A stretch of 60,263 nt of DNA from Candidatus Schekmanbacteria bacterium. GTDB taxonomy: Bacteria > CSSED10-310 > JACPHN01. The stretch lies in the NCBI GenBank assembly GCA_016188575.1, contig JACPHN010000161.1, forward strand, positions 1 to 60,263, in the 5' to 3' direction. This document shows, piece after piece, positions 1 to 14,700 of this stretch. The position numbers and the translations under genes were made by a program. Positions within the stretch are counted from its first letter, which is position 1, and each line of letters opens with the position of its first letter. The notes beneath the pieces were generated by a model. It saw nothing but the letters and a program-made list of their open reading frames with translations, did not search any database and had not been told where the DNA came from.

Positions 1-294
1 CCAGGGAAATTCCTGGCGAAGCAATCGAGAGGACCGCCCTTTGATGCGTTTGACGAGAGTATGGATGCCGAACTGGGGATCGACCTCGACAAGAAGATGG
101 ACATGATCGGCCATGACTTCAAGTTCGAGGAGCTCGGCCCGGCATTCCATGATAACCTCAGCGATAATTTCTTTCAACCGGCTATCCACTCCACTGACGA
201 GAACGCTTCGGCGGTACTTTGGACACCACACGACATGGTACTTGCAGGAGAAAACGACATTCAGGTTGGACTTGTACTCAAGATCGAAGCGCAT
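1..294 (-). CDS. tnpA: IS200/IS605-family transposase TnpA, partial at left edge
   Basis: The minus strand reads openly from an ATG at 294 off the left edge, giving 98 residues. The N-terminus carries the family pattern KYHVVWCPKYRR (about residues 18-29) and the HUH motif DHVHLLVEV, with metal-binding His64 and His66. The catalytic Tyr would lie beyond the edge. The family excises and inserts single-stranded DNA. A hairpin just upstream (352-372) fits the subterminal hairpins these elements use as ends. The plus-strand reading frame over the same bases (61-363) is an antisense shadow. Confidence 0.9.
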   Translation of the reverse strand, partial: MRFDLEYKSNLNVVFSCKYHVVWCPKYRRSVLVSGVDSRLKEIIAEVIMECRAELLELEVMADHVHLLVEVDPQFGIHTLVKRIKGRSSRLLRQEFPW

Positions 295-351
295 GAGCTA
301 AAATATACCATGATCGCCCATCTAATGCAAGAGAGAGAAGAGCCGCTTTCT

Positions 352-372
352 CCCCAGGGCTAAAGCCCGGGG
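352..372. repeat. Hairpin at the IS200/IS605 end
   Basis: CCCC-A-GGGCT, AA, AGCCC-GGGG forms an imperfect hairpin with one bulged A, 58 bp upstream of the TnpA start. Single-strand IS200/IS605 transposases recognise such subterminal hairpins. The exact cleavage site cannot be fixed without the other end of the element. Confidence 0.5.
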
Positions 373-444
373 CAACCGCGGCGAGACTTCGGTGTGGGGC
401 CGGGTCGCGCTTTAGTGCGTTCGCGGCATGACGGTGTCAAGGAC

Positions 445-570
445 TGAATCCACCGCCGGTTCGCCTGCAAGAAGCGCGGAACGCGCATCACGAAGACCGC
501 TGTCCTGTAGTGCGCGTAAGCGGGACGGAGGGGGCGCTGACGAGTCGACTTCGAGCAGGCGGTGGATTCA
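445..570. repeat. R1 MITE-like repeat, copy a (complete)
   Basis: A 126-bp unit bounded by perfect 13-bp terminal inverted repeats TGAATCCACCGCC and GGCGGTGGATTCA. The right half carries GGACGGAGGGGGCGCTGACG and a GAGCAGGCGGTGGATTCAGG end, which recur in other copies. No coding content is visible. It occupies the gap between the IS200 end and the gene at 762; I see nothing else supportable in 373-761 beyond the ribosome binding site of that gene. Confidence 0.8.
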
Positions 571-761
571 GGAAGGCGCGGCGTGTGCACGCGTGAAAAC
601 GCACACATACCAGCCTGTGGCGCGGTGTCGCACCCCCGGAAAAACCGGCCGCCACGCGGTCTACATCGCCCGCCGCACTGGCCTGAAAGCTGCAAGAACG
701 GCTCGTGAAACAATCGCAGCCCCCGTCTCGCTTACCCCGACACTATCCGGAGGATCTCATC

Positions 762-2639
762 ATGAACGCGGCACCAAAAGACCATGCCGGCAGCCAGTCC
801 CCAGCGCGTCTCGCAATGACCTCGTGGCTCGCTTGCGTCACTCTCCTGGCTTACCTCGTCGCCGCGGCGCCACTCGCCGCGCTCGGCGCCGAGCTGCCGT
901 CGCCCTGGCAGTGGCTCCACCCCTCGCCCCACGGATTCTCGCTGCACGCGGTCTGGGGCGAAACCCCGGACAGCGTCTATGCGGTGGGGGAAGCGGGAGT
1001 CGCCATGCACTTCGATGGCGTGAGCTGGAAGCGCGTCGATGCGCCCTGGAATACCACGCTTGGCACTGCCTGCGGAAGCGATGGCATTCTGTTCGCGGGA
1101 ACCACCCTCAACGCTCTGGCGCGCCTCGATGCCGCGGGGTGGTCGCTCTCGCCCCTACCCGTGACGATGGAGATTCTCGGCGTCTGGGCTTTCAGCCCCG
1201 CCGCGGTGCTGGTCGTCGGGCGGTTCGCGGGTGGCGGCGGCGCGGTCCTGAGGTTCGACGGGAGCACCTGGCAGCAGCTCGATACATCCGCATTGGAGCC
1301 GATCGCCGGGTACGGAATTCAGGCCATTTGGGGTCCCAGCGAAAAAGACTTCTTTGTGTCCGCCTCCCATCCCACGGACCTCCTCGACCCCGACTTCGCC
1401 ATCTGGCACTTCGACGGCACGACCTGGCAGGAGCAGTACCGCTACAACAATGGCAGAGGCGTAGAAAAGATTTGGGGAAGCGGTCCACAAGACGTTTACG
1501 GGATTCGCGATAGCCAGGCGCTGCTGCATTACGATGGCAAGGCCTGGAGCGAAACCGGCCTCGAGCTCCCGGAGGTGAAGTGGCTGAAAGACGTCCGCGG
1601 TGCGAGCGACGCGGACGTATATGTGGTCGGGAACGAGGGCATCTGGCACTACGAAGGCCGGAGCTGGTCGCTGCTGCGCGCCGCCGACGCGCCGCTTGCC
1701 GCGGTGATGCCGTTTCCCGGCCAGCGCGCCAGCTTCGTCGGTGACTACGGCGTCACCCTGCGGCGCGACGGTGCTGCCTGGACCCGCGACGACCTCCCGA
1801 CGGGCCGCATCGATATCGAGGCGGTTTGGGCTGTGGGCGAGGAGCTCTATGCCGCGGGCGGCGCCTGGAACTGCTACGAGTGTGGCGCCATGCTGCATTT
1901 CGACGGCACGGCATGGCGGGACGTGACCCTGCCGAAGGTCGATCACCTGCGCGGACTTTGGGGAAGCGCCGCGGATGACGTTTTTTCCGTGGGGGACTCC
2001 GGAGCGATCCTGCATTTCGACGGAACGGAGTGGCGGCCGCTGTTATCGAACACGGATATCGACCTCCAAGCGGTGTGGGGAAGCTCCGCCAGTGATGTCT
2101 ACGTCGCCGGCTGGGGAACGCTGCTCCATTTCAACGGTGCGGTCTTCGAGAAGGCTGCGGATTTCATCACTGAGGACGACATATTGAACGATGTCTGGGG
2201 TAGCTCCAAGGATGACGTCTACGCGATAGGCGGGAGCCAAGCGGACAATGCTGGAGAGGTCCTCCATTTTGACGGAAAAGCCTGGTCGCGGCTGCCGGAG
2301 CTCCGCCCCAGCTACCGTCGTTTCGACGCCATTGTGGGGACCCGCGCCGATGACATTCACCTGATCTCGTATGGCGTTGCCTATCACTTCGATGGCGAGA
2401 GCTGGACAGCGACGCCGCTCAGCCCCGAACAAAACCTGAGAGACCTTCATGCGAGTGACCACGGCGTCTTCGCGCTCGGCTACGAGCAGGTGTTCGAGTT
2501 TCTTGGCGGCTTGTGGCTGCCTGTCGCGGAGGACACCGGCGACGTCGGCGTCATCTCGAGCTCGCCACGGTACGGCCTGATCCTGGCCGGCAATGGCGGT
2601 GCCATTCACGCCGCCCCCTTTGATGTGCTCGGTCAATGA
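762..2639 (+). CDS. Secreted beta-propeller-repeat protein
   Basis: A 625-residue protein. ATG 762 is preferred to in-frame starts further upstream because GGAGG lies 8 bases before it and a signal peptide follows (hydrophobic stretch about residues 22-43, ending ALGA). The rest is a run of about ten degenerate repeats of the form WGxxxxDVYxVGxxGxxxHFDGxxW. This pattern is common in exported proteins of myxobacteria and related groups and folds as a Kelch/beta-propeller-like array. No catalytic motif is recognisable, so a binding or surface role is inference. The 3' end overlaps the convergent aminotransferase gene by 7 bp. Confidence 0.8.
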   Translation: MNAAPKDHAGSQSPARLAMTSWLACVTLLAYLVAAAPLAALGAELPSPWQWLHPSPHGFSLHAVWGETPDSVYAVGEAGVAMHFDGVSWKRVDAPWNTTLGTACGSDGILFAGTTLNALARLDAAGWSLSPLPVTMEILGVWAFSPAAVLVVGRFAGGGGAVLRFDGSTWQQLDTSALEPIAGYGIQAIWGPSEKDFFVSASHPTDLLDPDFAIWHFDGTTWQEQYRYNNGRGVEKIWGSGPQDVYGIRDSQALLHYDGKAWSETGLELPEVKWLKDVRGASDADVYVVGNEGIWHYEGRSWSLLRAADAPLAAVMPFPGQRASFVGDYGVTLRRDGAAWTRDDLPTGRIDIEAVWAVGEELYAAGGAWNCYECGAMLHFDGTAWRDVTLPKVDHLRGLWGSAADDVFSVGDSGAILHFDGTEWRPLLSNTDIDLQAVWGSSASDVYVAGWGTLLHFNGAVFEKAADFITEDDILNDVWGSSKDDVYAIGGSQADNAGEVLHFDGKAWSRLPELRPSYRRFDAIVGTRADDIHLISYGVAYHFDGESWTATPLSPEQNLRDLHASDHGVFALGYEQVFEFLGGLWLPVAEDTGDVGVISSSPRYGLILAGNGGAIHAAPFDVLGQ

Positions 2640-3832
2640 CCGGAGCGCCGCTCCGGCAGGAGCTCGACGAGCGCCGCGGCAAGAACGTCGTAGTCGTCCG
2701 GGCGATTGTAGGCCTGGGCGGAGAGGCGGAGCAGCCGCCGCGGCGCCTGCGGCCACGGCATCACTGGGATCTCGATGCCGTAGCGATCGTACAGCTCCTG
2801 TTGCAGCGCATCGAGGGCGCCGGGAGCGCCCGGCGCCCCCGGCGCGGCAGCATCCGGCAGCGGCACCGACGCCATGGCGCCCAGCATGGAGTCCGGGCAC
2901 GGAGGCGGACAGCCGATTGCCTGCAGCACCCGCCGCCGGGCCTCGACCGCGAGCGCGTGGTTCCGCGCCATCAGCTCGGGCCACCCTCCGGCGTGCAGCT
3001 CGGCCATGAACCGCAAGGCGGTCGGAACCGCGAGGTAGGGCGTATAATCGTCGGTTCCCGTCCAGTCGAACTCGAGCCAAAACCGCGAGCGACCGGGATC
3101 TTCCACCGTCGCGCCGTGGCTGATCACCGCCGGCCGCACGCAATCGCGATGATCGCGCCGGACGTGCAGAAAGCCGACACCCTTGGGTGCGCACAGCCAC
3201 TTGTGGCAGTTACCGGCATAGTAGTCGGCGCCGAGCTCGTCGAGAGCGAGCGGCACCATTCCGGGTGCATGCGCGCCATCGACGAAGACCGCGATTCCGC
3301 GGTGCTGCAGCTCGCTGACGAGCTCGCGCACCGGGAAGACCAATGCCGTGGGGCTGGTGACGTGGTCGATCAACGCCAGCCGCGTCCGCGGTGTCACACC
3401 GCCAAGAACGCGCTCGAGCACGATCTCCGGCCCGGCGAGCGGAAAGGGCACGTCGACCTCCACTGCGCTCGCGCCGCCGCGCCGCGCCGCATGCACCATC
3501 GCATTTCGGCACGCGTTGTAGACGTGGCTCGTCGCGAGCAGCTCGTCGCCGCTCGCGAGACGCACTGACCCGAGGACGGCGTTGACCGCAGTCGTGGCGT
3601 TCGGGACGAAAGCCAGGTCCTGTGGCGTCGCGCCCAGGAGCTCGGCAAGCTCCGCCCGCGCGGCGTCGAGCAGCGCCGGCAGCTCACGCGAGAGGAAGCG
3701 CACCGGCGATCTCTCCATTTGCTCGCGAAGGCGGCTTTGAGCCTCCAGCACCGGGCGCGGGCAAGCCCCGAACGAGCCGTGGTTCAGAAAGACCATTCCC
3801 CGCTCGAGCAGCCAATGCTCTCTGACATCCAT
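2633..3832 (-). CDS. Class V PLP-dependent aminotransferase (isopenicillin N epimerase-like)
   Basis: A 399-residue protein, full family length, starting FLNHGSFGACP as in the isopenicillin-N-epimerase/cysteine-desulfurase-like branch. The PLP region shows VDGAHAPG (Asp185, His188) and GNCHKWLCAPKG with the Schiff-base Lys211. These proteins carry out aminotransfer, racemisation or C-S lyase chemistry; the substrate is not predictable. It is convergent with the beta-propeller gene. Downstream of the stop the two genes overlap, and upstream lies the terminator of the fibronectin-III gene. A Pro/Ala/Gly-rich insert (APGAPGAPGA) near residue 335 is unusual. Confidence 0.88.
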   Translation of the reverse strand: MDVREHWLLERGMVFLNHGSFGACPRPVLEAQSRLREQMERSPVRFLSRELPALLDAARAELAELLGATPQDLAFVPNATTAVNAVLGSVRLASGDELLATSHVYNACRNAMVHAARRGGASAVEVDVPFPLAGPEIVLERVLGGVTPRTRLALIDHVTSPTALVFPVRELVSELQHRGIAVFVDGAHAPGMVPLALDELGADYYAGNCHKWLCAPKGVGFLHVRRDHRDCVRPAVISHGATVEDPGRSRFWLEFDWTGTDDYTPYLAVPTALRFMAELHAGGWPELMARNHALAVEARRRVLQAIGCPPPCPDSMLGAMASVPLPDAAAPGAPGAPGALDALQQELYDRYGIEIPVMPWPQAPRRLLRLSAQAYNRPDDYDVLAAALVELLPERRSGH

Positions 3833-3845
3833 CGCGTCACGAAGG

Positions 3846-3883
3846 GGCGGGGGGCGGTGCCACGGATCCCGCCGCCCCCCGCC
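3846..3883 (-). terminator. GC-rich hairpin between two minus-strand genes
   Basis: A perfect 12-bp inverted repeat, GGCGGGGGGCGG and CCGCCCCCCGCC, separated by 14 bases. It sits just downstream of the stop of the fibronectin-III gene on the minus strand and upstream of the aminotransferase gene. There is no T run, so intrinsic termination is a reasonable but unproved reading. Confidence 0.5.
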
Positions 3884-3901
3884 GAAAGGATGACGGGCGC
3901 C

Positions 3902-5227
3902 TCAATACGTCAGCGTGATCGTGAACTGCCCGCTGTTATTGTCCGGGTTACAGTCACCGTTGACGAAGAAATTCACCGTCCCCGACCCCGAGTTGAACGT
4001 GCTGCCATTGCTGACCTGCACGCACCCTTCGCGCATGAGCGCTCCGAAGCTCGCATTTGCGCAGTTGGCCGGGCAAATGCACTCGTCGGTCAGGGCGTTG
4101 CACTCGGACGTATCCGCGCCACCAGGTCCGTTGCACACGAACGTGCCCGACAAGCAGACGGAACCTCCGAGACTGGTAACCTGGACGGTCGTGTTGGGCG
4201 CCATGCCCGAGATCGACTTCATGCTTCCGGAGTGCGTCTTTCCCGAAATGGTATCCGAAATGGTGCCGCCGAGCTTGACGGTGACGGAATTGGAGTAATT
4301 TGACGGCAGGCCCGAGCGGAGTGCGCGAACGCGGTACGTGTAGCTGTTTCCACTGCTCACGCTGGTGTCCGAATAGTTCGTGGTCGGTCCCGTGGTCGTG
4401 TGAATGGTCGTGCCGTTGCGCTCGATTTCGAAGCTATCAGCAGCACACGGAGTGCCGGCCGAGGTGTCGGTCCAGGAAAGCGACACGGACGAGCTGGTCG
4501 GCGCGCTCCCGCTCAGGTTCGCAGGCGCCGACGGGCTCGTGCCCGCCGTCGCCTTGGTCACTGCGTCTGAAGGATCCGAAACCAAGGGGTCCGCGCCCGT
4601 GAGGTTGGCGAAGGCGCGCACGCGGAAGGCGTACGTCGTGCACCCGGCCAGTCCCGTGACCGCGCCGGCTCCTGATCCGGAAAACGCCCCGGTCTGGACG
4701 CCCGTTGCCCAGACCGTGTCGCCGCTGATCTGATACTCGACGATGAAACCGTCCTCGCCGGCATTGGCTTCCGTGAAGGAAACCGTAATCTGACTCGACG
4801 AGTCCGCGTTCGCCTGTAACCCCGTGGGAACCGCTTCCGGCGCCACCGTAAGCGCAGTGTAGTCGCTCTCGTTGCCACTGCTGTCGTAAGCGGTCAGCGC
4901 CACACCCCCCGACGAGGTAAAGATGCGGGTAGTCTCGGTCAGCATGTTTTCGACGGTCGGATAGGGCCGCGATGCGGCGCCGTAGTAGAGCCGATAGCCG
5001 GCCAGATCGGCGACGGGCGAGGTGCCGTCCTCGTTGACCGAAGGCGCGGACCATCCCAACAACACGGCGGCGGAATTCTTCCCGATCCATTTGGCGGCCG
5101 GCGGACCGGGAGGTGGATCCGCGGCGCTCCCCAGGCTCGGTATCGCGACAAGGCAAGTGAGCAGGACAGACCGGCGCCAGATGCGCGCGCGTCCGTATCC
5201 AGTGTGGCGATGAGATGACAAGCTCAT
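3902..5227 (-). CDS. Secreted fibronectin type III repeat protein
   Basis: 441 residues from the ATG at 5227, chosen because a signal peptide follows (basic start, then VLLTCLVAIPSLGSAA). At least three fibronectin type III-like units follow, with hallmarks such as LQANADSSSQITVSF, YAFRVRAF and YTYRVRAL. The last about 110 residues form a separate Cys-rich domain (CNGPGGADTSEC, CICPANC) ending in FTITLTY. It is probably extracellular. No enzyme domain is visible; adhesion or matrix binding is inference. Translation could begin further upstream, but the added N-terminus would mask the signal peptide. Confidence 0.75.
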   Translation of the reverse strand: MSLSSHRHTGYGRARIWRRSVLLTCLVAIPSLGSAADPPPGPPAAKWIGKNSAAVLLGWSAPSVNEDGTSPVADLAGYRLYYGAASRPYPTVENMLTETTRIFTSSGGVALTAYDSSGNESDYTALTVAPEAVPTGLQANADSSSQITVSFTEANAGEDGFIVEYQISGDTVWATGVQTGAFSGSGAGAVTGLAGCTTYAFRVRAFANLTGADPLVSDPSDAVTKATAGTSPSAPANLSGSAPTSSSVSLSWTDTSAGTPCAADSFEIERNGTTIHTTTGPTTNYSDTSVSSGNSYTYRVRALRSGLPSNYSNSVTVKLGGTISDTISGKTHSGSMKSISGMAPNTTVQVTSLGGSVCLSGTFVCNGPGGADTSECNALTDECICPANCANASFGALMREGCVQVSNGSTFNSGSGTVNFFVNGDCNPDNNSGQFTITLTY

Positions 5228-5438
5228 GTTCACGCTCTCGCGAGAGGTTGGGGTGGATGGGCGAGATAAGTATAGCGCCATTGTCCACGGATCACTCGCC
5301 ATCCCGCTCAGAGTCGATCTTGCGGCGCGCCGCAGTCCCGGCTAAGCTCCACCGACATCACCACCGCGGTTGACACCGCCGGTAGGCGCCCGTGTCGCCG
5401 GCAAGGAACCAACGCCGGAACCATTTTTGGGAGGAGCG

Positions 5439-6581
5439 ATGGCCGTGGACGTCAGGGTCATCGAACGGAGTGATTTGAGCGCCCTTCTCGTGGCGCTGCG
5501 GGAGGCCGGCTACGAGGTGATCGCACCGGTGCCCGGCGATGGCAGTATCGACTACGACGTGGTCACCGGTGACGGCGAGCGCCCCGCGGGGTTCTCCGAC
5601 GAGCAAGGCCCCGGCGCGTACCGACTGAAAATGTGCGACCACGAGCTCCTGTTCGACTTCGCCGCCGGGGCGTCCTCCTGGAAGAAGTTTCTCTTCCCCC
5701 CCAGCCTCACGCTTTTCTCCGCGCAACGCCGGCAGCGCTCCTTCGAGGTCCTGCCCGGTACGGCCGATCCCCCTCCGCGGGCGTTTCTGGGGGTGCGCGC
5801 GTGCGATCTGGCGGCGATCGACATTCAGGACAAGATTTTTCTCGGCGGCGCGTTTGTCGATCCGAGCTATCGGCAACGCCGAAAGGACGTCTTCATCGTC
5901 GCTGTCAACTGTACGCGTGCCGGCGGCTCGTGCTTCTGTGCGTCCATGGGCACCGGACCGCGCGTCAGCGCGGGCTTCGATCTCGCGCTGACCGAGCTCA
6001 AAATAGGCGAGCGCCACTGCTTTACCGCCGAGCCCGGCAGTGACCGCGGCGAGGCCGTCCTCGCTCGCCTCGGCAGCCCGCCGGCGGGTCCCGCGCTGGA
6101 AGCCGAAGCGCGCTCCGCCAGCGCTCGCTGCGCCGCGAGCATGGCGCGCCAGATGGTCACGGACGGGCTGCGCGACTTGCTCGTCCAAAATCAGGAACAT
6201 CCCCGGTGGCGCGATGTCGCCTCGCGCTGTCTCGCCTGCGCCAACTGCACCCTGGTGTGCCCGACGTGCTTCTGCGCCACCGTGCAGGACGTGACCGATC
6301 TTGCAGGAGAGCGCGCCGAACGTATCCGCGTCTGGGACTCCTGCTTTTCCGCCGAGCACTCCCATCTGCACGGCGCCAGCGTGCGGCGCACGACCCGTTC
6401 GCGATATCGCCAATGGATGACGCACAAGCTCGCATACTGGATCGACCAGTTCGGAACGTCGGGTTGTGTGGGGTGCGGCCGCTGCATCACGTGGTGCCCG
6501 GCCGGAATCGACATCACTGAGGAAGCGGCGGCGATTCGCGCGGGCGGCGCGACGACTACCGCGCCGAACAGCGGGGGATAG
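5439..6581 (+). CDS. hydB: Sulfhydrogenase beta subunit, 4Fe-4S electron-transfer protein
   Basis: First gene of a group 3b [NiFe] hydrogenase operon. 380 residues from ATG 5439, preceded by GGGAGGAG; earlier in-frame starts lack a binding site. The C-terminal half holds two ferredoxin-type clusters: CLACANCTLVCP (Cys264, 267, 270, 274) and CVGCGRCITWCP (Cys343, 346, 349, 353). Further Cys motifs (GGSCFCASMG) occur mid-protein. In this family HydB and HydG carry electrons between NADP(H) and the hydrogenase module HydDA, in the cytoplasm. The gene ends in TAG, followed by 4 bases and the next ATG. Confidence 0.93.
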   Translation: MAVDVRVIERSDLSALLVALREAGYEVIAPVPGDGSIDYDVVTGDGERPAGFSDEQGPGAYRLKMCDHELLFDFAAGASSWKKFLFPPSLTLFSAQRRQRSFEVLPGTADPPPRAFLGVRACDLAAIDIQDKIFLGGAFVDPSYRQRRKDVFIVAVNCTRAGGSCFCASMGTGPRVSAGFDLALTELKIGERHCFTAEPGSDRGEAVLARLGSPPAGPALEAEARSASARCAASMARQMVTDGLRDLLVQNQEHPRWRDVASRCLACANCTLVCPTCFCATVQDVTDLAGERAERIRVWDSCFSAEHSHLHGASVRRTTRSRYRQWMTHKLAYWIDQFGTSGCVGCGRCITWCPAGIDITEEAAAIRAGGATTTAPNSGG

Positions 6582-6585
6582 TTGC

Positions 6586-7056
6586 ATGCAGACTCGGGAC
6601 CTTGAAAAGTACGTGGCCGAACATCCCTTCTTCGCCGGTCTCAAGAGCGACTACGTGAAGCTGATCTCGGGGTGTGCTCAGAACGCCGCCTTCAACAAGG
6701 GCGAGCATCTTTTCCGGGAAGGAGACCCCGCCAACCAGTTTTTTCTCATCCGCTTCGGGAGGATCGCCATCGATATCCCGGTCCCGCATGGCGGTGCTAT
6801 TACCGTCCAGACTCTGGAGCCGGGCGACATCGTTGGCTGGTCGTGGCTGTTTCCACCGTTCGCGTGGACATTCGACGCTCGCGCGCTCGAGCTCACGCGC
6901 GTGATCGCCATGGATGGCGCCTGTCTCCGGGGGAAGTGCGACGCCGACACGGCGCTGGGCTACGACCTCGTGCGGCGCTTCTCCGCGGTGATCGCGGAGC
7001 GGTTGCAGGCCACGCGCCTGCAGCTCCTCGACGTCTACGGCACGGTGAAAGGATAA
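6586..7056 (+). CDS. Stand-alone cyclic-nucleotide-binding domain protein in hydrogenase operon
   Basis: 156 residues. The cyclic nucleotide-binding fold of the CRP/FNR type is visible: F-x-KGEHLFREGDPANQFFLI (about residues 36-56), then GRIAI and LEPGDIVGWSWLF. The protein ends after the dimerisation-helix region (RLQATRLQLLDVYG), without a helix-turn-helix, so it is unlikely to bind DNA. Its place between hydB and hydG, 4 and 5 bases from its neighbours, is a known arrangement in group 3b clusters and suggests a regulatory partner of the enzyme. Ligand and effect are unknown. Confidence 0.85.
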   Translation: MQTRDLEKYVAEHPFFAGLKSDYVKLISGCAQNAAFNKGEHLFREGDPANQFFLIRFGRIAIDIPVPHGGAITVQTLEPGDIVGWSWLFPPFAWTFDARALELTRVIAMDGACLRGKCDADTALGYDLVRRFSAVIAERLQATRLQLLDVYGTVKG

Positions 7057-7061
7057 CGCAG

Positions 7062-7943
7062 ATGGAGGCGACCGCCGCTGCGAGCCGCGTGGTTTCTGCG
7101 CCGGAGAACCCGCCGAACCCGTGGATTCCGCGACGTTTCCGCGTCGCGGCGCGCAAGCAGGAGACCTCTGATACCTTCTCGATCGAGCTTGCTGACGCCG
7201 GCGGTGAAGAGCATGAGGGATTCTCATTTCGCCCCGGCCAGTTCAACATGCTCTACGCCTTCGGCGTGGGGGAAAGCGCGATCTCGATCAGCGGTGACCC
7301 GGCGGCGGGCGGCCAACCTGTGCATACGATCCGCGTTGTCGGCACGGTTACCCGGGCGCTTGGCGCGCTGCGGCGCGGCGATGTGCTCGGGGTGCGCGGC
7401 CCCTTCGGCTCCGCCTGGCCTGTCGAAGAGGCGGCGGGGAGGGACGTGATCGTCGTCGCCGGCGGTATCGGCCTGGCGCCCCTGCGGCCGGCGCTCCACC
7501 AGCTCTTCGCCGATCGCGCCCGGTTCGGTCGCATTACTCTGCTCTACGGCGCGCGCACCCCACGGGATCTCCTCTTTGGCGACGACCTCGACCGCTGGAG
7601 CCGGAGGCGCAACACCGGCGTCCAGGTCATCGTAGACGTCGCCGGACCGAGCTGGCACGGCAACGTCGGCGTCGTCACCTCGCTGTTCAAGCGCGTCCAC
7701 ATTGATGGACCCGACACGGTCGCGCTCATCTGCGGGCCTGAGGTGATGATGCGCTTCACGGCCGTGGAGTTGCTCCAGCGCGAGGTCCCGATCGACGCCA
7801 TCCACGTGTCGCTGGAGCGCAACATGAAGTGCGCCACCGGCTTTTGCGGTCACTGCCAGTACGGCCCGGCCTTTGTCTGCAAAGACGGTCCGGTCTTCCC
7901 CTTCGCGCGTGTCAAACCGTGGTTCATGGTGAGGGAGCTCTGA
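7062..7943 (+). CDS. hydG: Sulfhydrogenase gamma subunit, FAD/NAD(P)-binding reductase
   Basis: 293 residues from ATG 7062, 5 bases after the previous stop. Ferredoxin-NADP reductase-like fold: FAD-binding [16 protein letters not shown], nucleotide-binding [15 protein letters not shown], and LICGPEVMM. The C-terminus has the [2Fe-2S] ligands of this family, [11 protein letters not shown] followed by a later Cys (about Cys257, 262, 265, 273). It exchanges electrons between NADP(H) and the HydB clusters. It lies one base before hydD, so the genes are translated from one message. Confidence 0.93.
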
Positions 7944-7944
7944 C

Positions 7945-8736
7945 ATGGCCAGGTTGAGGAAGCCCAAGCTCGCGGTCTGGAAATTCTCCTCGTGCGATGG
8001 CTGTCAGCTCAGCCTGTTGGACTGTGAAAGCGAGCTCCTCGCGGTCGCTGGCGCCATCGACATCGCCAACTTTCCCGAGGCCTCCCGCGCAGTAACCGGT
8101 GGGCCCTACGACCTGTCGCTCGTCGAGGGCTCGATCACCACTCCGCACGACGCGGAGCGGATCCACCGCGTGCGGCGGCTGTCGCGTTTTCTGGTGAGCA
8201 TCGGCGCCTGCGCCACGGCCGGCGGCATTCAGGCGCTGCGCAACTTCAAGGATGTCAGGGACTTCACGGCGATGGTGTACGCGCGACCCGAATACATCGA
8301 CACGCTCGCGCGGTCCACACCCATCGCCGACCACGTCCCGGTGGATTTCGAGCTGCGCGGCTGCCCCATCAGCAAGGCACAGCTCCTTGAAGTCGCCAGC
8401 GCCTTCCTGAACAGCCGCAGGCCCAACGTGCCGACCTACAGTGTCTGCATGGAGTGCAAGCGGAAGGGTGCGACCTGCGTCCTGGTGGCGAGCACGACGC
8501 CGTGCCTCGGGCCGGTTACCCAGGCCGGTTGCGGCGCGCTGTGCCCCAGCTACCACCGCGGCTGCTATGGGTGTTTCGGCCCGATGGAAAATGCCAACAC
8601 GGACTCGCTCAACCAGCGGTGGCAGGCGCTTGGCGCTTCCGCCGCCGACCTCGTGCTCGCGTACCGCACCTTCAACGCCTGCGCGCCGGCATTCCGTGAC
8701 GCCGCGGCGGGCCTCGATGCGGAGCGCCGGCCATGA
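7945..8736 (+). CDS. hydD: [NiFe] hydrogenase small (delta) subunit
   Basis: 263 residues of the NADH:quinone oxidoreductase 20-kDa-like small subunit family. The proximal-cluster ligands begin with SSCDGCQ (Cys17, Cys20), then GACATAGG, and the C-terminal Cys-rich region [18 protein letters not shown]. Short small subunits with no twin-arginine signal are typical of cytoplasmic group 3 enzymes. It overlaps hydA by ATGA, which fits translational coupling of the two halves of the catalytic dimer. Confidence 0.93.
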
Positions 8737-10070
8737 CGGACGCCAACATGCCACGAACCGCCAGGACCACCAGAACGATCCGCTGCGACTACCTGGCGCG
8801 GGTGGAGGGCGAAGGGGCGCTCTACGTGCGCATCCGCGACGGCTGCTTGCAGGACGTGAAGCTCAAGATTTTCGAGCCGCCGCGTTTTTTCGAAGCGCTC
8901 CTGCGCGGCAGGCGCCACCTCGAAGCGCCCGACATCACGGCGCGCATCTGTGGCATTTGCCCCGTGGCCTACCAGATGAGCGCCTGCCACGCGATCGAGA
9001 ATGCGCTCGGAATCACTGTGGGCGGTCCCTTGCGCGAGCTGCGCCGACTGCTGTACTGCGGCGAATGGATCGAAAGCCACGTCTTGCACGTTTTCATGCT
9101 CCACGCGCCCGATTTCCTCGGCTATGAAAGCGCCATCCACATGGCCAGGGACCACGGCGACCTGGTGCAGATGGGTCTGCGGCTAAAAAAAATCGGCAAC
9201 GATATCGGCGCGCTTCTCGGAGGGCGGGAGATCCACCCGATCAACGTCCGCGTCGGCGGCTTTTACAGGGTGCCGGAGCGGCGCGAGCTGCAACGGCTCG
9301 TGGAAGACCTGACCTGGGCCTGCGACGCGGCCGAAAAGGCGGCGCGATGGGTGGCGACGCTGCCGTTTCCCGATTTCGAGCAGGACTATGAATACGTCGC
9401 CCTGCGCCATCCCGCGGAATATCCCTTCAACGAAGGCCGCCTGGTCTCCAGCGGCGCGCTCGACATCGCGGTGAGCGAATACGAGCAGTGCTTTGTGGAA
9501 GAGCACGTTGCCCACTCCAACGCGCTGCATTCAGCGATGCGCGGGCGCGGCGCCTACTTCGTCGGGCCGCTCGCCCGCTACAGCCTCAACTTCGCTCGCC
9601 TCACTGCGCGGGCGCAGCACGTCGCCCGCGCCTGCGGCCTCGGCGAAACCTGTTGGAACCCGTTCCAAAGCATCATCGTGCGCTGCATCGAAACGCTTTA
9701 CGCGTGCGAGGAGGCCCTGCGCATCATCGCGTCCTATGAACGGCCGGAGCGCCCGTTCGTCGACGCCCCGGCGTTTCCGGGCCGCGGATTCGGCTGCACC
9801 GAAGCCCCGCGAGGTATCCTCTATCACCGCTACCAGCTCGCTGACGACGGAACGATCACGGACGCGCGCATCGTCCCGCCGACGGCCCAGAACCAGAAGA
9901 CAATTGAAAACGACCTGAGGGGCCTGGTACCCCGTTACCTCGACCTGTCGGACAGCGAGCTGCAGTGGCGCTGCGAGCAGGCCATTCGCAACTACGATCC
10001 CTGTATCTCCTGCGCGACCCACTTCCTCCGGCTGGACGTCGACCGCGGCGGGGCGGCGGCGGTGCCGTGA
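8733..10070 (+). CDS. hydA: [NiFe] hydrogenase large (alpha) subunit, group 3b
   Basis: 445 residues. Both nickel motifs are intact: N-terminal RICGICP (Cys73, Cys76) and C-terminal DPCISCATH (Cys424, Cys427). The C-terminal extension [15 protein letters not shown] after His430 is the peptide removed during maturation, by the protease encoded next. Gene order and sequence style match group 3b NADP-dependent sulfhydrogenases: H2 oxidation or evolution coupled to NADP(H), in some organisms also sulfur reduction. Direction in vivo cannot be told from sequence. Confidence 0.95.
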
Positions 10071-10576
10071 CGTCGGGGCGGTGCGGCTCCGAGCCGCCGG
10101 CAGTGCTCGTCATCGGCGTCGGCAACGCATGGCGCGGCGATGATGGGTTCGGCTTGGTCGTCGCGGAAGCGCTCGCCGATTCGCTGCCGGAGGTCGCCGT
10201 GAAGACGGCTTCCGGCGATGGGGCGGCGCTGATGTCGGAGTGGGAAGGCGCGGAGCTCGTCATCATCGTCGACGCTGTCCGCTCCGGTGCTGCACCCGGG
10301 ACGCTACACCGCCTTGACGCCTCCGCCGGTCCGCTGCCGCCAGACTCGCTGCGCTGCTCGTCGCACGCGTTCGGCGTCGCCGAAGCCATAGAGCTGTCGC
10401 GGGCGCTCGGGACAATGCCGCGTCGCCTCGTCGTCCACGGCGTGAGCGGCCAGACCTTTGCCGCCGGCACCGACCTTTCCCCTCCGGTGCGCGACGCCGT
10501 CGGGCCGCTGCTGAAGCGGATCCGCGACGAGGTGGCGGCACTCACTCTCGCGCGGGAAAGCGCAGGTCACAGGTGA
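10067..10576 (+). CDS. Hydrogenase maturation protease
   Basis: 169 residues from GTG 10067, which overlaps the hydA stop (GTGA). Family motifs are [15 protein letters not shown] at the N-terminus, the central IIVDAVRSG with an acidic nickel ligand, and SSHAFGV with the metal-binding His. It belongs to the HyaD/HycI/FrxA-like peptidase family A31/M52 and should cleave HydA after His430 once nickel is inserted. The C-terminus is a little longer than the family core. Three bases after its stop, the start of a hypA gene remains. Confidence 0.92.
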
Positions 10577-10579
10577 GGC

Positions 10580-10702
10580 ATGCACGAGTACTCGCTCATC
10601 CACATTGTCGCTCGCGCTGGCATCATTATCGTCATGGCTGTCTGCGAACGCCCGGCATCACCTGCGGCAGCGAAGTGGCTGCCAAGCGCAAGCCGCTGCT
10701 AG
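10580..10702 (+). pseudogene. hypA: hypA 5' scar (first seven codons only)
   Basis: The reading frame starts MHEYSLI, the invariant N-terminus of the nickel chaperone HypA, 3 bases after the protease stop, where hypA would be expected. After residue 7 the translation no longer resembles HypA and stops at 10702 (40 residues in all, no zinc-binding CxxC). I infer that hypA was cut and the rest lost when the region carrying the toxin-antitoxin pair was joined. Any hydrogenase made here would need hyp genes from elsewhere. Confidence 0.7.
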
Positions 10703-10784
10703 AGACTATCCCGGCAGGTCTGTTAACCGCCAAGTGATGATCGCCAGCGCCAAATGTAGAATTCCTCGTGCGCTAGCAAGTTGC

Positions 10785-10813
10785 TTGCACACTCTACTGT
10801 GTGGCGCTACACT
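10785..10813 (+). promoter_or_regulatory. Sigma-70-type promoter and possible operator of the toxin-antitoxin pair
   Basis: TTGCAC (10785-10790), 17 bases, TACACT (10808-10813), then a GGGAGGT binding site at 10823-10829 and the antitoxin ATG at 10836. The -10 box overlaps an imperfect palindrome GTGTGGCGCTACAC (two mismatches), a plausible operator, since FitA-type antitoxins usually repress their own operon. Confidence 0.6.
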
Positions 10814-10835
10814 TGCCTCCGAAGGGAGGTGCCCC

Positions 10836-11057
10836 ATGGCGACGCTGACGATTCGCAATCTACCCGACGACCTGGTTGAGCGACTGAAAGACGCGGCGGC
10901 ACGACGTGGCCATTCCATGGAGCAGGAGATCCGCCTTCTTCTGCAGACACGGTACATGGAACGATCCGAGATTCTCGACCAGATCCGCGCCCACTGGGAC
11001 GATGCGACTGCGCCATCTCCCGATGAGGTGCAACGCTGGCGCAATACCGGCCGGTAG
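10836..11057 (+). CDS. FitA-like ribbon-helix-helix antitoxin
   Basis: 73 residues. The N-terminal part TLTIRNLPDDLVERLKDAA matches FitA/VapB antitoxins: a short beta strand followed by two helices of a ribbon-helix-helix DNA-binding domain. The C-terminal tail (QIRAHWDDATAPSPDEVQRWR) should bind and block the toxin. The start is set by GGGAGGT 6 bases upstream. It is followed after 12 bases by the PIN toxin. The pair sits in the place where hypA was lost. Confidence 0.9.
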   Translation: MATLTIRNLPDDLVERLKDAAARRGHSMEQEIRLLLQTRYMERSEILDQIRAHWDDATAPSPDEVQRWRNTGR

Positions 11058-11069
11058 CAGGCACGCCTC

Positions 11070-11483
11070 ATGGTCTTTGACACGATGGTTCTCGCGTACG
11101 CACTCCTGGGAGTAATTCCGTTCCGAGACGACGCTGCGGCCGCGCTTGCGAAAGCCCCACAGGTTCTGGTACCCGACTCTTTCCGTGCGGAGCTCACGAA
11201 CGTCCTCTGGCAATGGGTCAAGAGCCGCAATGTCCCACTGAAGCGTGCCATTGGGCTACTCCATGAAGCAGAGGCTCTAATTACCGAAGTCGTCCCCGCA
11301 ACTGAATTGACCGAACTGGCGTTACAACTTTCCGTTGCGAACAATGTAGCTGCGTACGACACGTTGTTTGTGATCCTTGGAGTAGAGCGACAGGTGAAGC
11401 TTGTCACTTATGATGAAGAACTTCTTCGCAAATTTCCCAACGTAGCCATTTCTCCTGCGGCCTATGTCCACGAGCTGAAATAA
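11070..11483 (+). CDS. vapC: PIN-domain ribonuclease toxin, VapC family
   Basis: 137 residues, full PIN-domain length. The acidic metal ligands are present: Asp4 (MVFDTMVL), Glu41 (RAELTNVLW), Asp97 (AAYDTLFV) and Asp115 (TYDEELL). PIN toxins cleave RNA, often tRNA or rRNA, when freed from their antitoxin. All catalytic positions are kept, so the toxin appears functional. Its base composition (many TT and AA) is lower in GC than its neighbours, which fits recent arrival. Confidence 0.92.
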   Translation: MVFDTMVLAYALLGVIPFRDDAAAALAKAPQVLVPDSFRAELTNVLWQWVKSRNVPLKRAIGLLHEAEALITEVVPATELTELALQLSVANNVAAYDTLFVILGVERQVKLVTYDEELLRKFPNVAISPAAYVHELK

Positions 11484-11530
11484 TCCCCGCCGGGTGGCAT
11501 TCGGAACAGCCGGGTTTCGCCCGACGCCCC

Positions 11531-11608
11531 GTTCTTCCGACGCACAGCGTCGGAAGAACGTTCCCGCTAACCTGCACGCGGGCGCTCCCGCGCGTCAGGT
11601 TGAGCGGG
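11531..11608. terminator. Tandem hairpins between vapC and the convergent 3.4-kb gene
   Basis: A perfect 13-bp stem with a 3-base loop, GTTCTTCCGACGC and GCGTCGGAAGAAC (11531-11559). An imperfect long stem, CCCGCT-ACCTG and CAGGTTGAGCGGG, follows at 11563-11608. Both lie in the 305-bp space between two convergent genes and could terminate transcription from both sides or be the scar of a small element. The remaining part of the gap, read on the minus strand, is open and protein-like but unassigned. Confidence 0.5.
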
Positions 11609-11788
11609 TTGTGCGATGACCGTATCACCACAAGACGCCGAGTCGAGCACCTGTTCCGAGCTCACCCCGGCCGGGATCCACACCGACGCCGAGCAAGCAA
11701 TCGTTCCAGGCACCCCGTTCGAATCCACGCCCAGCGGCCGATCGAGCACCGGTCCGAAGCACGCTTGCCGAGCGCCGTCGAGCTTGCG

Positions 11789-14700
11789 TCAGCGGCGCTC
11801 CACTCCGTTCCGGCGCCGCCGATAGCCGCGCGCCTGCAGCGCCAACACCAGCGCTCCGAGCACCGCCGCCAGCGCCACGCCCGCCGCCGGTTGCTCGACC
11901 ACCGGCACAGGATTCGCCACCGTTGGTGTGGACGTCGGCGTCGGCGAGGAGGTCGGTGTCGGCGTGGGCGGGTTCGGGTCCAGCAGCAGTACGGCGCCGG
12001 ATCCGGCCGCGAGCGTCACCTCGGTCACCGGCTCATAGCTTACCGTCCACTCCGCCGGCAGCACGCCGTCCGGCGGCACCGTACCGCCGCCAGCCGGCTG
12101 CGCCTGGTAATAAGTTCCGCCGAGCGCCACGGTTTGCGCGCTGTCGCCCGCATTCACCACTGCCAGCCCGTTGCCGTAGCTCCGCATGTAGACCTGCTGC
12201 CCCGCGTCGAACAGGTCGGCGATCTGCGCCGGTGCCGGCCCCGCCGGTGCGCCGATCGGGATGCCGTATTCCGGCCACCATTCGGGGTCCTCGCCCCACT
12301 CCAGGTTGAGGTAGGTGTGCGCGCCCTTCACCAGGAGATAGCTGCCGACCGAGAAGAGCCGCCCATTGACGGCATCGTTGTAGTAGCTCTGCCCAATCAC
12401 CGCGCGGTCCAGGTTGATCAGCCCGAGCGCCCGATCCATCTGCAGCGCCCAGTCGACCCCTCCATAGTTGGCCCACACATCGAATCCAAAGCCTTCGATC
12501 ATCACGCCGTCCGCACCGCTGTAGTCCACCGCGTCGCGCGAATTGACCCAGTCGCCAACGTTCGGGATGAAGTAGTAGCGCCCCGCGAAAGCGTTCTGCA
12601 CGTGCGCGATGAACGCCTCGATGCGCGCGGTCCAGGCCGCCTCGAAGGTCGGATCGAGCGCCGGGAGATCCGGGTCGTACTGGTCGCCGCCCAGATAGCT
12701 CGGCACGCTGAAGCTGTCGGCGAACAGGCCGTCCGCGTCATTGTGCTCGAGCTGCGAGAGCACCTGTGGCACCCACCAGGCGCGCCAGGAAGCATTGTCG
12801 AGATCCATCAGGTACCACCCCCAGGCGCAGTGCAGGACCCGGCGCGATTCCCATTGAAAGAACCACTCGTCCTGAACCACGTCGTCACCGGGCCATTCCT
12901 GCACCCAGTCGCCGTCGATGATACCGAGGTACGTGCCGTTCGGCTGACAACTCTCGTCCACGAACTGGTATCCGAGGCCGAGCCCGAGCCGGTAGTGGAG
13001 GATGACGAAGTTGGGGTTGCTGCCGCGCAACAGATCCGCGTCGACTCGCCGCATCTTTTGCGTGCCGTCGTAGCGACTCGCGGAAAAGGCGGCGAGCTGG
13101 GGATTGAGGTTGCTGAGCTGGTCGTTGAACACGTGGATGCCGAAGGTGGTGTCGGGCAACGGGCGCGGCCCGTCAGTGGGCTCCGGCGTGGCCGTGTCCG
13201 TCGCCGTAGCCGTTGCCGTGGCGCTGGCGGTCGCCGGCGGCGACACGGTGCCGGTGGGCGAGGGTGTCGGCGTCGCGGTGGCCGCGCCGCCACCAAGCTG
13301 CAGCGACAGGCGGTTGCCTGCCGGCGAAACCGCCACGTCTGCCACCGTGACCAGCCCGTCGGCGTCGGCCACCACGGTGCCGGAGGCGACCAGGCCGCCA
13401 TCGCTCACGCGCCGGTTCGCCCAGTCGACGGCGGCTCCCGGCGCGACCGTGAAGCTCTGTGTCCTCCGCGGCGTCACGTCCACTGTCTGATTGCTGCTGT
13501 CTGTCGTGCGCAGGCTGATGGCCCAGTCGGTAGCGGTGTCCGTGGGAGCAGTGTCCCAGACATTCCAGCTCGCCGACCACTCCAGGTTCATGTTGTATCC
13601 GCCGACACCGGGCGGCGGCACGGCCAGACTTCCCGAGGCGTCGCTGAGCCCCGGAATCGTCTCGTCGCGCAGCACCGTCATGCCAAAGAACGGTCCGCCG
13701 CCGCTATCGCCCACGGTTGGCCCGAGGCCCGCGTATCCGAGCCAGGTATGGTCCGCGTCCACGATCTCGCCGGAAAACGCGCGCCGCCCGTCGTAGAACG
13801 GCGCGTACGCAGGGCTCCCCTGCGACGCCCAGGCGATAACCGTGTCCTGCAGGCCGTGGACGAGAGAAATGTGCGCCATTTCATCTCCCGCGCGGCTGAC
13901 GAGCTGCGCCTGGTGGTCCTGCCAGTCAAAAACGCCGGTGCCGTCGTACTGCGCCAGGTGCGCCGCGTAGACGCCGCGGTTCTCGATCGGCAGATTTGCC
14001 GCCAACGCTCCCCAACGCGGTTCCAGGTCCCCGGTCAGCCAGGGATCGGCCGCGCCCACCGATGAATTCGCGTAGTCGGTCATCGGCTCGCTGCAGTAGA
14101 CCGCGGCAAAGACGTTCGGGTACCGCATGCCGAACGCCAGCGAGCCGCTTCCCCCCATGGAGTGCCCGTACGCGTAGATGCGATTGTCATCGAGCGCCGC
14201 CACGCCGCCGCGCAGGGTATCGTACACGGCCCGCAACACGCGCTCCTCCGTGAAGTTGACGATCGGACCGGTAGTTACGGCGACGTCCGGAACGGAATAG
14301 TCGTGGGTCGCGCTGTAGCCGTAGTACCACGATTGACGGGGGTCGTCACCCCACAGCTCGACTGCACAATAGTAATGGGCGCCGTCCTCCGCCTCGTAGC
14401 GGCTCCCGTATCCCTCGATGTGCAAGAGCAGAGCGTATTCCGCCGGCAGCGCGCCGCCGCACTGATCAGTCGACGGTAGACCCACAAAATAGTTGTAGGC
14501 ATACGTAGAGCGATAGGAATGGCCCAGGTCACAGGCCGGCGTCTCGAAGGTCGGGTTCCAGCGGCTGCGGTCCATGAACTGCGTGTAAACACGCCCGCGG
14601 CCGCTGGTGGACTGCCACACGAGCACCGGCTCCGGCGCAGCCACGGCTTCGGTCAACGGCCCCACGGTGTTTTCAGAGGTGAAGTCAGACGTGTTCTCGT

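Follow-up and report, generated by a model that had tools for sequence, protein, structure and literature searches.

What became of the gene that appears once to have closed a hydrogenase operon in a draft genome of Candidatus Schekmanbacteria bacterium, and how is nickel now inserted into the enzyme which that operon encodes? The question arises from a single contig of 60,263 nucleotides (C265), analyzed at its full length and called the window here, which is one of the 275 contigs of a 9.2 Mb assembly (93.8% complete, 3.7% contaminated). A first-pass annotation of the window had read it as a hydrogenase operon from which hypA was cut out, with a toxin–antitoxin pair now in its place, leaving behind the start of the gene and an enzyme that either draws on a hypA elsewhere or is in decay.

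The operon spans 5370–10576, with all genes running in the same direction from an Fe–S subunit to a maturation protease, and it is, judging by its predicted proteins, a group 3b-type [NiFe]-hydrogenase together with its protease. The beta (Fe–S) subunit gene (5370–6581, + strand; PF17179 Fer4_22, 112.5 bits) is followed on the same strand by a gene with a cyclic-nucleotide-binding domain (6466–7056; PF00027, 55.2 bits; true start probably later), the gamma or NAD(P)-binding subunit (7074–7943; PF00175, 60.4 bits; PF10418, 36.1 bits; start picked within a longer open reading frame [ORF]), the small or delta subunit (7945–8736; PF01058, 78.4 bits), the large or alpha subunit (8733–10070; PF00374, 94.6 bits), and the protease itself (10067–10576; PF01750, 51.2 bits; TIGR00072, 118.7 bits against a cut-off of 47.45). 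The solved structures closest to the large subunit are 9nez (sulfhydrogenase 1 alpha) and 5yxy (cytosolic enzyme), a likeness shared with the group 3b enzymes (sulfhydrogenase I, HyhL), as is the subunit make-up read from the Pfam matches; the name group 3b is our assumption, made with the nearest relative in mind. The NCBIfam sulfhydrogenase models are matched by the window proteins, but below cut-off, and the large subunit scores 276 bits with NF040828, under a cut-off of 700. By reading, RICGICP and DPCISCATH, which we take to be the active-site motifs of the large subunit, are intact in its translation, and the enzyme is presumably made.

Three bases separate the end of the protease ORF at 10576 from ATG CAC GAG TAC TCG CTC ATC, which begins at 10580. 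These seven codons (10580–10600, + strand; MHEYSLI) are most likely the remains of a hypA gene, a claim that is built on motif and operon position because seven codons are too short for proof by profile. The degenerate pattern ATGCAYGARNNNWSNYTNAT, written for MHExSL(I/M), occurs once in the 60-kb window, at this very site, and in none of 100 shuffles, which rules out chance as the origin of the motif. No more of HypA is found past the seventh or eighth codon: two profiles, one made from 31 short and one from 31 long HypA proteins, were run unfiltered against all six frames of 10561–11800, and both stayed at or below about 1 bit. The short profile does align MHEYSLIH at the remnant, its remaining alignments and all those of the long profile are noise-like, and the window reaches 1.1 bits against 5.1 bits for the best of 40 antisense control stretches; a frameshifted or displaced remainder, considered as a candidate, was rejected on the same six-frame scans. 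The frame opened by MHEYSLI runs for 40 codons to a stop at 10700–10702 and has no match in a Pfam scan. The operon position thus holds a HypA start and no complete gene, and the remnant together with the absence of its remainder makes it very probable that hypA was lost from this operon, as the first-pass annotation had proposed.

What such a start ordinarily opens can be read from relatives, taken as the best 80 of at least 579 matches to the window's large subunit. These comparisons are distant, because the seven genomes of the same phylum that were searched (G001–G007) hold no match to the large subunit at E 1e-40. Of the 80 loci, 75 have a detected protease gene (the exceptions are L054, L074, L087, L093, and L103), and 72 extend at least 250 nt past it (L066, L090, and L092 fall short). 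Within that distance, 30 loci carry a short HypA, four a long one, and 38 neither, so that short forms make up 30 of the 34 cases with any HypA there; one of the short genes (L070) is frameshifted. Starts of the type MHE-x-SL(I/M/V) number 30 in the 80 loci, of which 29 begin frames at least 80 codons long and the last is the short hypA of L070. Because 29 of these 30 starts open full frames, an MHE-type start at this site marks hypA and not a separate peptide, and a conserved short MHEYSLI peptide occurs in none of the 80 loci.

Where neither form of HypA follows, the next ORF in several of the 38 loci reads as HypF by eye, and in L069 Pfam confirms it. A short HypA gene lies further on in L039 and L082, and the genome of L092 contains one as well. 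The gene order protease, short HypA, HypF, HypC, HypD is found in L174 (Binatota), and the ORFs of L175 (Nitrospinota) read in the same order, with HypF, HypC, and HypD named partly by eye. In the 38 loci, 660 bases around the end of the protease gene were scanned with a profile for a second hypA remnant, and the scores were no higher than those of antisense controls. In L106 (Nitrococcus mobilis), a frame of 27 codons that begins VHERSVDRYLMRR and lies just ahead of 5804 overlaps the end of the protease gene; its profile score is below zero, the genome has canonical HypA and HypB, and the frame is possibly another hypA remnant. In L038 (Nitrospinaceae), a cation-transport ATPase stands directly behind the protease, after 4816. 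The frameshift in L070 splits the short hypA of Candidatus Jettenia ecosi (L070:5819–6083), in whose genome no HypA over cut-off and no HypD was detected.

The short HypAs constitute a recognizable class. Canonical HypA (PF01155, TIGR00100; 3a43, 6g81, 2kdx, 5aun, 5yxy) has about 115 residues and a zinc domain, whereas the 31 intact short proteins align over about 87 residues and lack that domain; common to both are the MHE start, the N-terminal nickel domain, a returning C-terminal strand, and location in hydrogenase operons. The comparison set of 31 long proteins, defined by a match that extends to position 95 of the Pfam profile or beyond, comprises 30 from relative loci and the genome's own. 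All four zinc-domain cysteines are present in every long protein and none of the four in any short one. The MHE nickel motif is present in 31 of 31 short proteins (three genes start with GTG), among which M1, H2, E3, L6, G34, L36, and S40 are invariant. MHEYSLI as a whole, once described as the invariant HypA start, is accordingly invariant only in MHE and L6 among the short proteins, and residues 4–7 vary freely among the long ones. Residues 5–7 read SL[IMV] in 29 of 31 short versus 1 of 31 long proteins. Histidines 38, 43, and 47 are near-invariant in the short class (94, 90, and 90%) and nearly absent from the long proteins (3, 0, and 0%). A HypA tree built without the zinc domain and without these three histidine columns, which leaves few columns, separates the short proteins from the long by a single branch with bootstrap 97 and SH-aLRT 94, present in 96% of bootstrap trees.

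The short protein is predicted to keep the HypA fold. The four short proteins scanned score 43–50 bits with the Pfam HypA model (cut-off 28.9), and in the genome-wide search all short genes exceed that cut-off except the frameshifted one of G141; the TIGR00100 equivalog model gives 39.9–44.4 bits for the three scanned, under its threshold of 88.1. A predicted model (pLDDT 86.7, pTM 0.72) has as its 14 best PDB matches HypA or its complexes with HypB or a large subunit, with 11 matches to HypA entries at E up to 0.001, query-normalized TM of 0.69–0.82, and rmsd of 1.6–6.0, and the short-HypA profile finds 3a43 at 1.3e-7. In the model, a predicted helix (41–52) carries His43 and His47 at a spacing of four residues, with His38 just ahead of it, and the three could lie together.

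To which class did the lost gene belong? A tree of the relatives' 80 large subunits together with that of the window makes the latter sister to six relatives, five of them with short HypA, although the SH-aLRT of 82 for this grouping falls below the level at which branches were starred. The lost gene most likely belonged to the short class, an assignment based on three residues, position, and this moderately supported tree, the remnant itself being only seven codons long; what the first-pass annotation overlooked is that the zinc-free short form, and not an ordinary hypA, was probably lost. Two further loci are consistent with an exchange of short for long HypA. One, L069, belongs to the window's sister group; it lacks a short HypA behind the protease but has a long one in its genome. 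The other, L038, branches first in a Nitrospinota clade in which the remaining ten members all have short HypA, and it too lacks the short gene after the protease and has a long HypA elsewhere.

The strongest competing explanation, in which the operon had its own copy of an ordinary zinc-type HypA and lost it, we regard as unlikely. The first 15 bases of the remnant are identical to the start of the genome's canonical hypA, and a long HypA follows the protease directly in 4 of 72 relatives. Those four lie elsewhere in the tree (L063, L077, and L085 of the Chloroflexota; L067 beside L110), whereas the nearest large subunits come mostly from short-HypA loci, and residues 5–7 read SLI, as in the remnant, in 8 of 31 short and in none of the 31 long proteins.

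The remainder of the genome carries maturation genes as well. Its single HypA match (C271:7675–8001; 90.7 bits, over cut-off) is followed on C271 by HypB (251 bits), and the large subunit of a second [NiFe]-hydrogenase adjoins the pair; C236 carries hypC, hypD, a HypE-type gene, and a HypX-like gene, and hypF is on C235. The hypA elsewhere that the first-pass annotation had called for is thus present. The gene after hypE on C236 (L117:11846–13525) combines formyl transferase and enoyl-CoA hydratase domains and is presumably of HypX type, which suggests hydrogenase maturation with oxygen present. Tetranucleotide comparison of 20-kb stretches of C271 and C236 with the window gives r of 0.85 and 0.80, against 0.25–0.60 for 15 stretches of other organisms (some contributing two stretches); shorter native pieces of the window give 0.63–0.78 (operon 0.67; 1–5200, 0.63). 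The canonical HypAB of C271 would then serve the window hydrogenase. Because hypA–hypB, hypCDE, the hypX-like gene, and hypF are all found elsewhere, loss of the local hypA need not mean decay of the enzyme, a possibility that is not required given its readable structural motifs and the canonical HypAB.

The site of the missing gene is occupied by other sequence. The remnant is followed by 101 bases (10601–10701), of which 10601–10636 (36 bases) are 86% identical to C177 65060–65095. Next, on the minus strand, come 58 bases (10702–10759) encoding a putative transposase C-terminus, HLALAIITWRLTDLPG and a stop, which we take as the relic of a DDE insertion sequence, IS5-like by presumption. Complete or partial copies of it lie at eight further sites of the genome (E up to 0.004; 75–91% identical), and six aligned copies of the tail agree to about 10702 and then diverge, as an element end would; the end of the element is presumed to lie near that position. 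An ORF ending in the tail in the L031 copy has sub-threshold matches to PF13586 (26.1; cut-off 29.2) and PF01609 (19.4; cut-off 23). Pieces of about 34–60 bases are spread over contigs C236, C107, C259, C136, C131, C108, C177, and C1, with one piece and a weaker second near the hypCDE cluster on C236.

Beyond the relic, 133 bases from the stop of the remnant frame as annotated to the antitoxin ATG, stands the toxin–antitoxin pair on the + strand: a predicted FitA-like ribbon–helix–helix antitoxin (10836–11057; PF22513 FitA-like_RHH, 62.6 bits, cut-off 27) and a predicted VapC-type PIN toxin (11070–11483; PF01850 PIN, 36.0 bits, cut-off 23.6; 2fe1 at E 0.00031). The toxin has, by reading, acidic residues D4, E41, D97, and D115, presumably those of the PIN motif. 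Order and strand, antitoxin before toxin, are those of the FitAB/VapBC type II modules, with nothing unusual in the pair; the antitoxin matches the NCBIfam mycobacterial VapB model at 20 bits, below the cut-off of 60. The GC content of the pair is 0.563, and none of 582 equal windows sampled from elsewhere in the contig is as low (mean 0.669). An AT-richer FitA/VapC module near the remnant, as first described, is therefore borne out. The promoter of its own with which it had been credited is not: a consensus scan for sigma-70 promoters finds nothing upstream of the pair and has its sole match (11387–11414) inside the toxin gene, and only a weak TTGCAC-17-TACACT is visible upstream by eye. Nor is it supported that the pair itself cut out hypA, with the transposase-tail relic standing between the two. 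The pair was considered and rejected as a repeated element, its toxin having one weak relative in the genome (C112, E 0.0017, with an internal stop); toxin relatives also occur in three plasmid records at <60% identity. Behind the toxin gene, at 11530–11560, lies a perfect 14-bp inverted repeat with a 3-base gap, and no terminator with a T run was found there.

Repeated transposase tails are classic points of assembly misjoining, and a genome in 275 contigs with an estimated contamination of 3.7% invites the suspicion that assembly or binning joined pieces that are not adjacent. We consider such an artefact improbable: the repeat at this junction is a 58-base relic 75–91% identical to its copies and not a long identical copy, and in tetranucleotide signature both sides of the junction are closer to the rest of the contig than DNA of other organisms is. 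More improbable still is a functional tie between the pair and the hydrogenase, whether by stabilizing it or by sharing its transcript; the two genes look intact, are co-oriented with the operon, and begin 259 bases behind the protease gene, but their composition is unlike the rest of the contig, and the next ORFs in loci with neither HypA form, read by eye, include no such pair apart from one PIN-looking ORF in L039. The pair is most likely an accidental neighbor of the wrecked hypA. That the MHEYSLI frame of 40 codons encodes a small protein with a function of its own hardly merits belief, since, for all that it retains a start codon immediately behind the protease gene, it lacks a Pfam match, aligns to no HypA profile past codon 8, and has no separate short counterpart in any relative locus. 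The ORF of L039 (6100–6462; Candidatus Brocadia) is of 120 aa, has no Pfam match at 0.001, and stands behind the protease and ahead of a short HypA with an MHEYSLI start.

Taken together, we think it probable that the operon ended in a short HypA that was wrecked down to seven codons, that an insertion-sequence relic and a FitA/VapC-type pair now fill its place, and that HypAB compensates. On this reading, the last gene of the operon would have been a short, zinc-free HypA whose translation followed immediately on that of the protease. The lineage of the window would have lost all of it except the first seven codons, and a rearrangement involving the insertion-sequence relic and the toxin–antitoxin pair would have filled the site. 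Nickel insertion into the window enzyme would now depend on the HypAB pair of C271; the loss would have been tolerable because the genome has the canonical hypA–hypB beside its second [NiFe]-hydrogenase, along with the remaining hyp set.

How genomes with an intact short HypA manage is a question of wider reach. A short HypA is present in 33 of the 80 relative genomes, in one case frameshifted, and no long one was detected in 31 of the 33; of the 47 without a short HypA, 43 have a long one (G160 and G191 as contig-start fragments only, G153 as a partial match), and in G170, G179, G180, and G182 no HypA exceeds the cut-off. HypB was sought in 40 of the 80, namely the 32 genomes then known to carry a short HypA, 30 of which show no long form, and eight chosen from the rest. 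No short-only genome (0 of 30) has a HypB over the cut-off, whereas 7 of the 10 genomes carrying a long HypA do; of the other three, G149 has a HypB divided between two frames, and none was detected in G148 or G153. Of seven sub-cut-off matches in short-only genomes, the three strongest are two UreG and one CobW-like protein. HypD, as a control, is found in 38 of the 40 genomes and in 30 of the 32 with short HypA, missing from G128 and G141, both short-HypA genomes. Around the long HypAs, a HypB-like sequence lies in the same stretch in 26 of 30 loci (absent from L217, L218, L226, and L228, the stretches alone being covered). The form of HypB sought was the canonical one, as distinct from the MinD type known from archaea. 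A novel archaeal HypB is referred to in sections of a recent review (PMC12134894).

Single absences of HypB mean little, because the short-HypA records are titled metagenome-assembled genomes; the evidence is the pattern over 30 genomes. Fisher tests give 1.6e-15 and, with the split HypB of G149 counted as present, 5.9e-7, both ignoring relatedness. A tree-aware test of short against long HypA, with four starred-branch pairs, has a mean of 3.6 in the expected direction and 0.4 without difference and is not significant (median p 0.125), which suggests some independence of the pattern from relatedness. The short, zinc-free HypA thus occurs mostly in genomes without a detected HypAB pair, and gene order, between protease and hypF, implies for it the same step that the pair performs.

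We tentatively propose, as a conjecture somewhat more apt to fail than to hold, that the zinc-free HypA clade by itself inserts nickel into group 3b hydrogenases with neither HypB nor a nucleotide switch, that His38, His43, and His47 replace the additional ligand arising on HypB binding in the canonical pair (His98 in Thermococcus kodakarensis), and that the clade has repeatedly been exchanged for HypAB, the window being one such case caught with the old start still recognizable. In T. kodakarensis HypA, His98 belongs to the zinc domain. The available text on the T. kodakarensis HypAB complex describes His98 moving in as a further nickel ligand (PMC7055735). As in canonical HypA, the amino terminus and MHE would bind the nickel of the short protein, and the three extra histidines would supply the further ligand from within, making HypB dispensable. 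The histidines and the undetected HypB are observed; their role as ligands and the independence from HypB would follow if the proposal is right. Single changes of the zinc cysteines of Helicobacter pylori HypA leave 9–60% of wild-type hydrogenase activity, according to the accessible portion of that report (PMC5557546).

The significance of the class lies in its relation to the nucleotide-driven HypA–HypB pair, which a 2025 review, in its available parts, presents as conserved throughout evolution (PMC12134894). A zinc-free HypA class that occurs in several phyla, in genomes where HypB was not detected, is an exception to that rule, makes a minimal route of nickel insertion testable, and could simplify the production of such enzymes in foreign hosts; what the window contains is a commonplace gene wreck, of use as an example of the exchange. 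In the open-access literature searched, including the portions at hand of PMC12134894, PMC7055735, PMC5557546, and PMC12727194, we found no zinc-free HypA class, and for HypB-free nickel insertion into hydrogenase by HypA only the bypass by added nickel, including in the corresponding portions of PMC10134865, PMC6311188, and PMC3287977.

One candidate for a GTPase replacing HypB, a 444-aa gene of L175 (910–2241), has no Pfam or NCBIfam match, and we take its product to be a predicted GTPase. It was rejected because its distribution does not fit: it is present in 19 of the 32 short-HypA genomes, in 3 of the 8 others, and in the genome of the window. In the Nitrospinota loci L175 (910–3241; G143:C26) and L176, this gene and a carbamate kinase-like gene precede the short-HypA hydrogenase operon, and the latter perhaps feeds carbamoyl phosphate to HypF.
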